A DNA stretch of 42,853 nt, taken from NCBI GenBank assembly GCA_027450145.1, contig DAIDKH010000037.1, positions 1 through 42,853 on the forward strand, written 5' to 3'. The position numbers and the translations under genes are program-made. Below the pieces are notes generated by a model that made no database searches, had not been told where the DNA came from, and saw nothing but the letters and a program-made list of their open reading frames with translations. This DNA is from Chthonomonadaceae bacterium. Its GTDB lineage: Bacteria; Armatimonadota; Chthonomonadetes; Chthonomonadales; Chthonomonadaceae. Shown here piece by piece: positions 22,479 through 28,127 of this stretch. Position 1 is the stretch's first letter; every line of letters begins with the position of its first letter.

Positions 22479-24176
22479 ATGGCAATCCGTCCTGAAGAGA
22501 TTACATCAATATTGGAGCGCGAACTGCAGTCCTATACTCGGGAGATTTCCGAAGTAGGGGTTGGAACCGTGCTGCAGGTTGGTGACGGCATCGCTCGCAT
22601 CTACGGCCTGCAGGAGTGCATGGTATCCGAACTGCTGGAATTTCTGGATGAGGCTGGTAATCCAGTAGCCGATGAAAACGGGAATATTATTCGCGCTATG
22701 GCGTTGAACCTTGAAGAGGATAACGTTGGTGCAATTATCCTCGGACCGTACAATGCCGTGGAAGAGGGTACCACAGTTCGCCGCACAGGACGCATTATCG
22801 AAGTTCCTGTGGGTGAAGCCATGCTTGGCCGCCTTATTAATGCGGCTGGCGACCCACTGGACGGCAAGGGACCAATCGTTACAGACCAGTTTCGGCCTAT
22901 TGAAACTATCGCTCCTGGTGTTGTAGATCGTCAGCCTGTTAAAGAGCCGCTACAAACTGGTATTAAAGCCGTAGACGCACTCGTACCAATTGGCCGCGGC
23001 CAGCGCGAACTTATCATTGGTGACCGCGGTGTCGGTAAAACCGCCATCGCGCTAGATACGATCGTCAATCAGAAGGGCGGAGATGTAATCTGCATTTACG
23101 TAGCAATTGGCCAAAAGGCGACGACGGTGGAGAATGTCCGCCGCGCGTTGGAAGAGGCTGGTGCTATGGATTACACGATCATTGTCGCGGCTACAGCCTC
23201 TGATCCGGCACCAATGCAGTACGTGGCACCCTACACTGGGTGCACGTTGGGTGAGTACTTTAGGGATCAGGGTAAACACGCCCTTGTTATCTACGACGAC
23301 CTGTCAAAGCAGGCAGTTGCCTACCGGCAGGTGTCGCTCCTTCTGCGACGTCCACCAGGACGTGAGGCGTACCCGGGTGACGTCTTCTACATTCACAGCC
23401 GCCTTCTTGAGAGAGCAGCGAAAATGCGAGAAGACTATATTATCGTATCTAAAACGGCGCCTGGTGACACCAAAACAGGAGTGGATGGGGTTGTTTACGA
23501 AGGCGGAGAAGGCCGCAGCCACGGTTCAAAGGTTCTTGCTGGCATGGCGGACAAAGACGGTCTTGAACTACGCCGCGTACCTGGAACGGGCGGCAGCCTA
23601 ACAGCGCTTCCGATCATTGAGACGCTTGCCTCCGACGTCTCTGCATATATCCCTACTAACGTTATCTCCATCACAGATGGACAGATCTTCCTGGAACCAG
23701 ACCTATTCTTCGCCGGTGTCCGACCCGCCATCAACGTGGGTATTTCCGTCAGCCGCGTAGGCAGGTCTGCACAGCCAAACGCCATGAAGAGCGCAAAGGT
23801 CGCTGGAAAGATGCGCCTTGACCTCGCTCAGTTCCGTGAGGTTCAGGCATTTTCCCAGTTTGCATCGGACCTGGATAAGGCGACACGAGATCAGTTGGAG
23901 CGCGGAATGCGGCTGGTTGAAGTGTTAAAGCAGGCACAGTTCAACCCAATGCCTATGGAGCAGATGGTTACCATTATCTACGCCGCCAACAATGGTTACA
24001 TAGACGACGTTCCGGTAGAGTCTGTGCGCAAATTTGAGGAAGAGTTCCACCCATACATGGCGGCAAACTATCCAGATATCATTGAGAAGATTCGAGCAAC
24101 TCGTGATATGGATAACGATACCGAGACCGCGTTGGGTAAAGCGATTGCGGCATTTGCGGCACAGTTCACACCGTAG
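22479..24176 (+). CDS. atpA: ATP synthase F1 subunit alpha with extra loops
   Basis: 565 residues against about 500-515 usual. Conserved parts include the N-terminal [10 protein letters not shown], the non-catalytic nucleotide site (K187), [23 protein letters not shown] and SVSRVG (R426, the residue that reaches into the catalytic site). The P-loop reads GDRGVGKT where alpha subunits normally have GDRQTGKT. Two insertions explain the length: about 13 residues near 57-70 ([11 protein letters not shown]) and about 50 residues (317-369) between RAAK and GGSLTALP. Reading frame is intact. It lies after a non-ATPase gene and before another, an unusual place within an atp operon. Confidence 0.97.
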
Positions 24177-24196
24177 GCTCAAACGCGAACTAATAG

Positions 24197-24225
24197 GCGG
24201 CCGACGAGAGTCCCTCGTTGGCCGC
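24197..24225 (+). terminator. Strong hairpin after atpA (terminator, attenuator or processing site)
   Basis: A 12-bp GC-rich stem (24197-24208 with 24214-24225, one G-U pair) with a 5-base loop begins 20 bases after the atpA stop. Only a weak T-run follows (ATTCTT), so it may attenuate rather than stop the transcript before the downstream fusion gene and atpG. It contains the TTG at 24218, arguing against use of that codon as a start. Confidence 0.6.
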
Positions 24226-24250
24226 ATTCTTAACAGCAGGCAGGGCGCAG

Positions 24251-26197
24251 ATGGCAGGTGGCTCAAATCCTGAAATAGTGGAAGCTATTCGTGTGATAAA
24301 GGATGCACTCGCTCGGATTGACGAGCCTGTGGTAAAGTCCATGGCTGCAGTGCATGCCCTGGAGCGTGAGCTCAACGAAACTGTAGCTCGTCGCGATCAG
24401 TTGCTGGCAAAAGCTGCACAGGCAGAGCTTACTCTAAATCGTCCTGAGCTGGCAGTGACTCTTCGCAATGAGGCTGAACGACTGGGCGCGACGATTGAGG
24501 CCTTAACGGAGCAAACGCAGACCGCGCGAGTTGCTGCAGATGCAGTCCGTGAGCAGGCTCCGGCACGTCGACAACAGCTGCAACTGCAGCTTGCAGAGCT
24601 GATGCGGAAGTCTGTGGAGTACAGCGCGCAGGCCGCCGGCGCCGATAGCGAGTGGCAGCGTGTGAAACGGGTGCAAGGCAATTTAGATACTGCGGATTGG
24701 CAGATTAGTGGCGCCATCGCCGACGAACGAGCGGACAAACTGTTGGAGGAGTTGGAGGCTCGACTAAGCCGCCCTTCCGATCAAGCGGATGTGGTATCCC
24801 CGTTCGAGGGGGATTTACCGCCTGATCCGACTGCCACTGTTGCAGTACAGGAAGGTGCGCCACCTACCTCAACGGTTGTAAGAGCCGTTCCCGCTATCGC
24901 GAACGAAAGCAAGCCGAAAGGATTGACAGCCAACATGACTTCGGATAAAACCAGGTTGCGCGTAGCCGCTATCGGCACGGGCGGTATATTTCGCGGTGCT
25001 CACCTTCCATGCTATTTGGATATCCCGGACGCGCGACTGGCAGCACTATGCGACCCGGATCCCGAGGCACTAAAGCTTGCCAAGCGTAGATTAAATGGGC
25101 TTACCGAAGAGCGGGTGGCGAAGTTACGCGAACAACACGATGACGAAACTGCCGAGCGTCTCCTGCAGGACGTAAGCGATCTTAAGCTTTACTCCGATCT
25201 TGATGAGGTAATAGCCGACGGAAATACTGATTTAGTAGATATTTGCACGCAACCGTTTTTGCACGCTCCACTCGCTATAAAAGCTTTAAATGCTGGGCTG
25301 CACGTTATGTGTGAAAAGCCGATATCCCGCAGTTGGCTTGAGACCGAGGACCTTATTAGCACGTGGAATAGGACAGGTAGATTTTATCAACACAACGAAA
25401 ACTGGCTATTCGAACCAGAATACTATACCGTTCGGAAGTTGATACAGTCCGGTGCAATTGGTGAACTTATCACCATGTTCCTTACGCAAGCTCACGGCGG
25501 CCCGGAGGGCCGCGCCGCGTTCTGGAACCCTGCAATGGGAGGCGGCGGGTCATTGCTGGACAATGGGATTCATGCGATTGGTGCGGCTTGGTTTGTCGCT
25601 GGTCTTAATCTACGTCCCCAGGTGGTGCGGGCTGTCGCGCCCTTTGGGATGTCTACCAGAATGAGCCAACGTATTTTAGATGGTCGCTATCAAGCGGTGC
25701 AGGTGGATGATGACGCACACATCCTGATTCGCTTTGAGGATGGCAGCACTGGATCCTGGTGCACTGCGCACATCGAGGGCTCATGGTCGTTCCAGGATAG
25801 CCCCCCCACGCAGTATATCGGTTCAACCGGGCGAATTGAGATGGCTCACAGTGATGGACGGCAGGTGGCTCGTGTTTTCGACTCTCACGGTAATCACTAT
25901 GACGTCCCGGTTTCGGGGCCCACATGGGTTCATTGGCCCTCCTCGTTTTACGGCGAAATACTTAACATGGTTCAGTGCATTCGTGCAGGCGAACAGTCCA
26001 TTATGACGCCTATGTTTGGTGCAGATTGCTCATCGATTGTTGGGGCTGCCTACCTTTCGGAGAAGTACGGCCGCAAAGCTGTCACACTGGAGGAGTTTCA
26101 ACAGTTCGCGCATTCGATTGCAGCGAAATATCCCGGTGACAAAGCTGCCGCAAACGATGCACTTGTAAATGAACTGCTTAGCGCAGTTCGCAAATAA
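24251..26197 (+). CDS. Coiled-coil/Gfo-Idh-MocA oxidoreductase fusion between atpA and atpG
   Basis: 648 residues from ATG 24251 (CAGGG upstream). Residues 1-190 are a highly charged, alanine-rich coiled coil; 190-228 is a proline/threonine-rich linker; 229-648 is a Gfo/Idh/MocA-family NAD(P)-dependent sugar oxidoreductase. The latter has a Rossmann GTGGIFRG motif (242-249), the catalytic-loop CEKP (K356) and a GGGSLLDNGIHAIG segment (D437, H441). The family oxidises or reduces sugars and inositols. The frame is open throughout, with no stop between parts. An internal ATG (24935) with AAAGGA about 12 bases upstream could also yield the oxidoreductase alone. Fusion of such an enzyme to a coiled coil, within an ATP synthase cluster, is not something I recognise. 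Confidence 0.85.
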   Translation: MAGGSNPEIVEAIRVIKDALARIDEPVVKSMAAVHALERELNETVARRDQLLAKAAQAELTLNRPELAVTLRNEAERLGATIEALTEQTQTARVAADAVREQAPARRQQLQLQLAELMRKSVEYSAQAAGADSEWQRVKRVQGNLDTADWQISGAIADERADKLLEELEARLSRPSDQADVVSPFEGDLPPDPTATVAVQEGAPPTSTVVRAVPAIANESKPKGLTANMTSDKTRLRVAAIGTGGIFRGAHLPCYLDIPDARLAALCDPDPEALKLAKRRLNGLTEERVAKLREQHDDETAERLLQDVSDLKLYSDLDEVIADGNTDLVDICTQPFLHAPLAIKALNAGLHVMCEKPISRSWLETEDLISTWNRTGRFYQHNENWLFEPEYYTVRKLIQSGAIGELITMFLTQAHGGPEGRAAFWNPAMGGGGSLLDNGIHAIGAAWFVAGLNLRPQVVRAVAPFGMSTRMSQRILDGRYQAVQVDDDAHILIRFEDGSTGSWCTAHIEGSWSFQDSPPTQYIGSTGRIEMAHSDGRQVARVFDSHGNHYDVPVSGPTWVHWPSSFYGEILNMVQCIRAGEQSIMTPMFGADCSSIVGAAYLSEKYGRKAVTLEEFQQFAHSIAAKYPGDKAAANDALVNELLSAVRK

Positions 26198-26227: not shown

Positions 26228-27094
26228 ATGGCAACCATTCGACAGGTTCGACAACGAATTCGCGTAGCGAAGAATATCCAGCAGATTACCAAAGCAATGA
26301 AAATGGTAGCTGCCGCTCGATTGAAACGCGCGCAGGAACATGTGCAGGCGGCAAGGCCCTATGCACAATCGCTTCGTGAGATCATGACCAGTGTCGCCAG
26401 TGCGGCCGGTGGCGAGGTTCAACATCCCCTCCTTGAGCAGCGTGACACGAAGGTAGTTGCGTTTTTCATAGTGACCAGTGACCGTGGTCTGGCTGGATCG
26501 TATAACTCGACGATGTTTAGGCGGGCCGCAGAACTGTTGAGGCATTATGACAAAGCCAACGTAAGGCTGTACATTGTGGGGCGCAAGGGCATTCAGTTCT
26601 TTTCGCGCCGCGGATACAATGTGGCGGGACAATTCTCCTTGGGCAGTGTTGTTACGATTGCGGATGCCCGTAATATCGCCGGTACCCTTCGCACGGCATT
26701 TGAAAGCGGCGAGGTGGATCAGGTGACTATGCTATACACGAGGTTTTATACCGCCATTACTCAGAAAGCAGTGGATGTGCAGTTATTACCCATTCAAACT
26801 CCCGCAGCCGCTGATGCCTCGGAAACGCAGCAGGAAGACTTCATTTTTGAGCCCGATGCTGGCCGCCTACTTGCGTCTCTTCTGCCTCGTTACCTCGAAG
26901 GTCAGGTGTTTCAGGCGTTGCTTGAGTCTTCCGCTAGCGAACATGGATCCAGGATGACCGCTATGTCAAGCGCTACCGATAACGCTGGCAAGATGATACA
27001 AACGCTCACTCTACAAATGAACCGCGTGCGCCAGGCAAATATTACACGCGAAATCTCGGAAATCGTAGGTGGTGCCGAAGCGCTGAAGGGCTAA
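26228..27094 (+). CDS. atpG: ATP synthase F1 subunit gamma
   Basis: 288 residues. The N-terminal helix RIRVAKNIQQITKAMKMVAA and the C-terminal helix with RMTAMSSATDNAGKMI and ARQANITREISEIVGGAEAL-like sequence are diagnostic of the central rotor shaft. ATG with AAGGA about 13 bases upstream. It is the last ATP synthase gene here; beta and epsilon do not follow. Confidence 0.95.
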   Translation: MATIRQVRQRIRVAKNIQQITKAMKMVAAARLKRAQEHVQAARPYAQSLREIMTSVASAAGGEVQHPLLEQRDTKVVAFFIVTSDRGLAGSYNSTMFRRAAELLRHYDKANVRLYIVGRKGIQFFSRRGYNVAGQFSLGSVVTIADARNIAGTLRTAFESGEVDQVTMLYTRFYTAITQKAVDVQLLPIQTPAAADASETQQEDFIFEPDAGRLLASLLPRYLEGQVFQALLESSASEHGSRMTAMSSATDNAGKMIQTLTLQMNRVRQANITREISEIVGGAEALKG

Positions 27095-27275
27095 ACCGTG
27101 TCTGGTGTTGCTAGTGACACGCGGTGTACCGCATTTGATACCGGCTGCGACACCACTAAGTCATTTATTTATATTGTATTAAACTTTGTCACCGCACTTT
27201 ATAGGTATCATTACCTAAAGCGTGTTAGCAGTTGGATGCAAGGGCACCCATGATGCCGAGGGAGGCAATGGCGCT

Positions 27276-28127
27276 GTGCGAAAGGTCCTTACATTTACTA
27301 AAATGCAGGGCGTGGGCAACGATTTTGTAGTTGTTGACGGCTCTGACAAGGGTGACTGGGATTGGTCTGCTCTCGCGGTAGAACTGTGCGATCGACGCTT
27401 TGGCGTGGGAGCGGACGGTCTGCTGGTTGTGGAGCCAACGAATCGCGCAGACCTCCAGATGCGTATGTACAATCCCGATGGGACGCCGGATGTTTGCGGT
27501 AATGGCCTGCGTTGCGTTGCACGTTATGCTCTAGAGCGGAAGCTTGTGGCTGTATCGCGCTTCACGATCCTCACACTCGCAGGCACCCGTGAGGTTTTCG
27601 TAGACACTGCTAGTAGCCATAGTCCGGTTACTGTGGCCATGGGCGACCCACGTCTTAGGGCGGTGGATATACCCATGACGGATGCGGGTGATACAGTGCT
27701 CGACTATCCATTGGTTTTACCGAACGGTTCCTGTATTTCTATTTGCGCTGTAAACACTGGTTCCTCGCATGTGGTGACATTTGTGCCAGAGCTACCCGAC
27801 GATGAACGGTTTTTCACTGTAAGTCCTCTGGTTGAACACCATGAAATCTTCCCGGAACGCGTAAGTATAATGTGGGCAACAAAAGTACATGACGGATTCA
27901 ATATTCGCATTTGGGAACGTGGCGCAGGCGAAACCTGGGGATGCGGAACGGGGGCATGTGCCGTTGGTGTAGCTGCAGTTCTTCAGCAACTCGCCAAGCC
28001 GGGCGAGGAAGTGCAGGTTCATGCGAAAGGCGGAACCCTACAAATTTGCTGGTCACACAGCACAGGCATCACGATGACGGGCCCGGCCGAGACTGTATTT
28101 GAGGGAACCATAGCATTGGCGTTGTAA
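27276..28127 (+). CDS. dapF: Diaminopimelate epimerase
   Basis: 283 residues. It interconverts LL- and meso-diaminopimelate for lysine and peptidoglycan synthesis. The two catalytic cysteines are C74 in DVCGNGLRC and C223 in WGCGTGACAVG, close to the positions in E. coli (73 and 217). KMQGVGNDFVVVD marks the N-terminus. I chose GTG 27276, ten bases after GAGGGAGG; a GTG 18 codons earlier lacks a site. It follows atpG after 181 bases with no gene. Aspartate kinase of the same pathway lies on the other side of the atp cluster. Confidence 0.95.
   Translation: MRKVLTFTKMQGVGNDFVVVDGSDKGDWDWSALAVELCDRRFGVGADGLLVVEPTNRADLQMRMYNPDGTPDVCGNGLRCVARYALERKLVAVSRFTILTLAGTREVFVDTASSHSPVTVAMGDPRLRAVDIPMTDAGDTVLDYPLVLPNGSCISICAVNTGSSHVVTFVPELPDDERFFTVSPLVEHHEIFPERVSIMWATKVHDGFNIRIWERGAGETWGCGTGACAVGVAAVLQQLAKPGEEVQVHAKGGTLQICWSHSTGITMTGPAETVFEGTIALAL

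Follow-up and report, generated by a model that had tools for sequence, protein, structure and literature searches.

The PspA/IM30/Vipp1 proteins (PF04012), which belong to the bacterial ESCRT-III superfamily, are linked to protection of the proton-motive force and to membrane stress. They are nearly always single-domain proteins. According to the main text of one survey, more than 98% of PspA homologues vary little in architecture, and the fusions named among the remainder (<2%) involve NlpC/P60, PspAA and tandem repeats; that main text makes no mention of a PspA–oxidoreductase fusion (PMC11237479). Deletion of the membrane helix α0 from IM30 leaves a protein that still binds anionic membranes and forms rods, the α1–3 hairpin being sufficient for binding, and the binding of IM30 to membranes is reported to be electrostatic (PMC12636044). 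Here we describe a locus in which a PspA-type domain is joined to a Gfo/Idh/MocA oxidoreductase within an ATP synthase operon. We found no published fusion of this kind, and no account of the locus, in the open-access full text that we searched.

The window, a stretch of 42,853 nucleotides, is part of a 4.1 Mb draft genome from the Armatimonadota, and the named relatives of the locus are Chthonomonadaceae. The fusion gene is a stop-free frame running from ATG 24251 to the stop at 26197; the mechanically called ORF opens earlier, at TTG 24218. The features of the locus are as follows.

22479–24176, + strand: atpA, F-type ATP synthase alpha, the upstream neighbour (Pfam ATP-synt_ab, 3.8e-80)
24195–24227, + strand: predicted RNA hairpin in the gap from the stop of atpA to the start of the fusion, with a 12-bp stem and a 5-nt loop (MFE z −3.7)
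24251–26197, + strand: fusion gene of 648 aa, composed of a PspA-like domain, a linker and a Gfo/Idh/MocA enzyme
24251–24775, + strand: PspA/IM30-like domain corresponding to PspA helices α1–α5 without α0 (hhalign, PDB profile, PF04012 in relatives, AF2)
24776–24934, + strand: variable, disordered linker (pLDDT <50; weak constraint in congeners, pN/pS 0.67–0.82)
24914–24934, + strand: putative conserved internal ribosome-binding region, CCGAAAGGATTGACAGCCAAC (codon conservation, three congeners)
24935–26197, + strand: Gfo/Idh/MocA NAD(P)-dependent oxidoreductase of 420 aa, and predicted free short product from ATG 24935 (Pfam, NCBIfam, PDB)
26228–27094, + strand: atpG, gamma, the downstream neighbour (Pfam ATP-synt, 9.5e-100)

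The first-pass annotation had described one uninterrupted frame between alpha and gamma in which a complete Gfo/Idh/MocA enzyme is joined to a coiled coil of 190 residues. The ORF and Pfam analyses confirm the frame and both of its parts, and the coiled coil stands; its length does not, the helical part covering about 175 residues before a disordered linker begins. A sequencing error hiding a stop between the halves is rejected, because the fusion recurs as an open frame in 15 of the 17 independently assembled genomes of the family (f1; 11 genera), one of them a single contig.

In the window the ATP synthase operon runs a, c, b, b′, delta, alpha and gamma, and is followed by dapF, not by beta and epsilon (26228–28127). 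A beta-type gene is found outside the window on a separate contig (G000:C110:3537–4178). A DUF3108-like gene (PF21347; 21780–22430, + strand) lies between atpH (delta) and atpA, and counterparts with 32–40% identity are also present at the atpH–atpA junction in G013, G015 and G016. The hairpin that follows atpA is possibly an attenuator or processing element: none of 200 shuffled sequences was equally stable, and the counterparts at L001 (z −4.3) and L036 (z −4.1) are comparable, with that at L002 weaker (z −1.5).

Profile comparisons identify the N-terminal arm as paralogous to the PspA/IM30 of its own genome, though divergent and without the membrane helix α0, a recognisable homology missed by the first-pass annotation, which had likened the coiled coil to stalk-type helices. 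A profile built from 17 arms matches the canonical PspA of the same genomes with a probability of 99.4 (E 2e-20, hhalign), and the controls (b, b′, gamma and reversed PspA) reach at most 0.2%. When all PDB sequences are searched with a profile of 13 arms, the matches are almost exclusively PspA/Vipp1 (best E 2e-6, PspA residues 21–217), the single weak match outside this family being a coiled coil (E 0.0095). The PF04012 cut-off is passed by the arms of G019 and G016, and by that of G025 when neighbouring matches are summed; the arm of the window species is sub-threshold. Searched across the class, the arm profile picks out exactly two PspA-type genes in every one of the 17 f1 genomes. Sister-family genomes each have one, the canonical PspA, apart from G006, where the search finds none. 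A stalk or b-subunit origin of the coiled coil is ruled out by hhalign with its controls and by hydropathy. The fusion protein has no Pfam match to PF00430, and the arm contains no b/b′-like hydrophobic (TM-like) segment, its best hydropathy window reaching 0.77 for the window species and at most 1.22 across the members, compared with 2.18 for b and 1.79 for b′.

The arm begins at the equivalent of PspA residue ~21–25 in the aligned members, without α0, and its α3 is shorter than that of PspA by ~15–20 residues. In the AF2 model the arm consists of two helices (residues 7–60, with a short break at 22–24, and 65–128) that form a hairpin with pLDDT values of ~80–94 in most blocks. In this model, residues 129–231 are largely disordered and the enzyme is well folded save for several low-confidence loops. 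The net charge of the arm hairpin ranges from −5 to +1, near neutral to slightly acidic.

The enzyme half is matched by the GFO_IDH_MocA families PF01408 (2.7e-19) and PF22725 (9.8e-16), and, with numbering from ATG 24251, the match opens near residue 236, just past the internal ATG at 24935. The Rossmann glycine motif is conserved throughout f1, all 16 enzyme-bearing family members and G029 have the CEKP and DNGIH motifs (EKP and D-x-x-x-H), and K356, D437 and H441 are invariant in the enzyme alignment (A1). The Pfam domains and these motifs bear out the earlier description of a complete enzyme with intact NAD-binding and EKP motifs. All NCBIfam equivalog cut-offs are far from reached, the best score being that for iolG (81 bits, with 355 needed). 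The nearest solved structures by sequence or fold are 5a02 (aldose–aldose oxidoreductase), 5uhw (an oxidoreductase) and 6jw6 (KanD2), joined by glucose–fructose oxidoreductase by fold; identity to the best fold matches is 15–24%. A helical insert of ~30 residues in the Rossmann domain is also found in the unfused orthologues. In two Armatimonadota families, a gene read from its sequence as a GlmU-like sugar nucleotidyltransferase lies closely 3′ of the unfused orthologue (L080:3896–5125 and L082:6844–8052). This neighbour is a hint of a nucleotide-sugar substrate; other contexts differ.

We searched 31 genomes of the class and read atpA–atpG intervals. Where complete, the f1 fusions are 647–910 aa long, with linkers of about 40–300 residues. 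The two halves are adjacent genes in G018, and G022 has the coiled coil alone (180 aa), with no enzyme orthologue at E 1e-60 genome-wide. Of the 17 f1 genomes, 14 have the locus between atpA and atpG, and in 13 it is directly flanked by both; in G028 one 512-aa frame separates it from atpA. The contig of G014 starts within the fusion. In G027 the fusion still adjoins atpG and atpA is on a different contig, and in G026 an intact fusion is found on a contig away from atpG. Within f1 the enzyme is mostly fused and mostly at the atp position; outside f1 and f3, the sister family, it is unfused and lies elsewhere, which counts in part against the first-pass interpretation. Among the 33 genomes examined outside f1 and f3 that have atpA and atpG at one locus, atpG directly follows atpA in 29, and sporadic inserts occur in the other four. 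G057, a member of an unrelated Armatimonadota family, has a distinct Gfo/Idh/MocA enzyme with 26% identity in its atpA–atpG interval (L068:5784–6785); its family mate G044 has no Gfo/Idh/MocA enzyme there. A nucleotidyltransferase-like gene occupies the atpA–atpG junction in G040 (L060:5841–6578, oriented).

The first-pass annotation had raised the idea of docking to ATP synthase, in which the coiled coil would attach to the peripheral stalk or to F1 and couple sugar oxidation to ATP synthesis. Retention of the atpA–atpG position in 14 genomes argues for such docking, and is more notable because the family's cultured member, C. calidirosea, reportedly has a non-operonic genome with many typical operons dispersed (PMC4959169), although this retention does not by itself show function. 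We nevertheless regard docking as very unlikely, because two lineages have broken the atp linkage with the fusion still intact (unlinked from atpG in G026; atpA on another contig in G027). The loss of the enzyme in G022 also counts against it, as do the derivation of the arm from PspA, the absence of any hhalign relationship with b, b′ or gamma, and the lack of a TM-like segment.

The genome of f3 (G029) encodes an unfused enzyme, without an arm, directly upstream of atpG. The enzyme tree tracks families and places f3 next to f1, and in the ATP synthase subunit tree G022 groups with G020 and the window genus, and G018 with the fused G017. These trees point to a vertical history, in which, most simply, the place of the enzyme next to atpG predates the fusion, the fused state is old in f1, and the enzyme loss of G022 and the split of G018 are later events. 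In a comparison of three congeners, pN/pS is 0.24–0.30 for the arm, 0.67–0.82 for the linker and 0.09–0.10 for the enzyme, values that are rough because synonymous sites are near saturation. The ratios indicate purifying selection on the arm and the enzyme, and much less on the linker.

This history could also have arisen by transcriptional hitch-hiking: an enzyme gene upstream of atpG, a PspA duplicate beside it, and a stop loss that fused the two, with the location providing steady expression only and the arm having no role for the enzyme. The f3 arrangement, in which the unfused enzyme already adjoins atpG, fits this account, as do an internal start that resembles an old gene start, the survival of split (G018) and partial-loss (G022) forms, and the sporadic inserts at the atpA–atpG junction in 4 of 33 other genomes. 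We consider it somewhat unlikely, however, since ten genera have kept the fusion, with purifying selection on the arm, and since three genera have lost the internal start and can make only the fusion.

An in-frame ATG is positioned exactly at the start of the enzyme in most f1 genera. In G026, G027 and the genomes of genus g2 this ATG follows AAGGAG or AAAGGAG at a normal distance, and elsewhere it follows a weaker match; in the window species, a Shine–Dalgarno-like AAAGGA is located 12 nt from ATG 24935, longer than ideal. The seven codons before this ATG form the gene's best-conserved nucleotide stretch in three congeners of the window genus, tied only by the overlapping stretch shifted one codon upstream. 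Six synonymous codons in a row are unchanged there, compared with 81% of comparable codons changed and a next longest run of 2, and the probability of such a run at a given place is ~4e-5, assuming independence. In genus g2, AAA GGA GAG is invariant in four genomes, the codons from there to the ATG vary, and the wider seven-codon window is not unusually conserved. A per-gene synonymous recoding test of the Shine–Dalgarno motif was not significant (p ~0.1–0.6 for most, 1.0 in G025), and we therefore rely on cross-species conservation for this motif.

The DNA conservation of the 21 bases preceding 24935, together with the Shine–Dalgarno matches in other genera, lends good support to the earlier suggestion that this start could give two products, and most genera probably make a short product. 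Because G019, G020 and G021, representing three genera, have no Met at this position, the short product is not essential everywhere and, judged from these sequences, is dispensable in some genera. The conserved block contains a TTGACA that is kept in the three congeners, and an internal sigma-70 promoter was considered. The −10 region is not kept, the promoter scan reports none, and the transcript would start after ATG 24935. A ribosome-binding site is preferred as the explanation for the block, a promoter being less likely.

We tentatively favour, at a little less than an even chance, an arrangement in which the PspA-derived arm holds the dehydrogenase at the membrane or at PspA polymers, the internal start yields free subunits, and the atp operon provides co-expression. 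This reading is favoured because α0-less IM30 binds membranes and forms rods (PMC12636044) and the natural arm resembles that construct. The Gfo/Idh/MocA dehydrogenase would carry an N-terminal arm derived from a second PspA copy without the membrane-inserting α0, and the arm hairpin would bind anionic membrane or join PspA polymers, holding part of the enzyme pool there. Initiation at 24935 would supply arm-less subunits able to assemble with armed ones, and the mixture would set the number of arms per enzyme oligomer. Placement in the atp operon would tie the gene's expression to that of ATP synthase, perhaps with adjustment by the hairpin that follows atpA, and physical docking to F1Fo would not be needed. 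The near-neutral charge of the arm is a caution for membrane binding, because that of IM30 is reported to be electrostatic; given this charge and the missing α3 residues, membrane binding or co-polymerisation may have been lost. A more specific version, which we judge unlikely, would make the α0-less paralogue an ESCRT-III-type scaffold that displays the dehydrogenase on the membrane or on PspA polymers, with the ratio of armed to free enzyme set by the internal start and the dose tied to ATP synthase expression.

The retention of the arm without the enzyme in G022 counts against a scaffolding role and is accommodated by a different proposal, in which the α0-less arm is a regulatory decoy that enters PspA polymers and caps them, matching the membrane-stress response to the level of ATP synthase expression, with the enzyme as a passenger. 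The presence of both the arm and canonical PspA in every family genome agrees with a decoy, and the internal start would permit an arm-independent supply of enzyme. The enzyme is, however, the more strongly conserved half, and the shortening of α3 relative to PspA also speaks against capping, making a decoy distinctly unlikely.

PspA proteins rarely depart from a single domain, and a stable, family-wide fusion of an α0-less paralogue to an oxidoreductase would be a natural test of PspA hairpin function without the membrane helix and a possible case of a bacterial ESCRT-III-type polymer acting as an enzyme carrier. The locus joins a family associated with protection of the proton-motive force to an operon that uses it. 

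Among known systems, the ATP synthase b and b′ subunits resemble the arm only in having long charged helices; the hhalign values, the lack of a TM-like segment and the lack of PF00430 described above separate the two. The enzyme half has in common with Gfo/Idh/MocA oxidoreductases (PF01408/PF22725) the Rossmann domain, the EKP and D-x-x-x-H motifs and the C-terminal α/β domain, and differs in its Rossmann-domain insert and its low identity to the best folds. Its unfused orthologues, from other Armatimonadota families and from Bathyarchaeota and Aerophobetes MAGs (L007–L012, L076–L083 and L050), are 44–57% identical over nearly the full length, have no PspA-like arm and, in the contexts examined, lie away from atp genes, with the f3 gene of G029 as the exception. 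The arm is homologous to PspA/IM30/Vipp1 proteins, including the canonical PspA of the same genome (G000:C23:23361–24011), over α1–α5 with the hairpin included, and shares with them the segments ‘W..A..RI..LQSEA.AR’ and ‘ADQ.L.ELE.KL’. It departs from these proteins in the absence of the amphipathic helix α0, in its shortened α3, in a sub-threshold Pfam score for the window species, and in the enzyme added at its C-terminal end.
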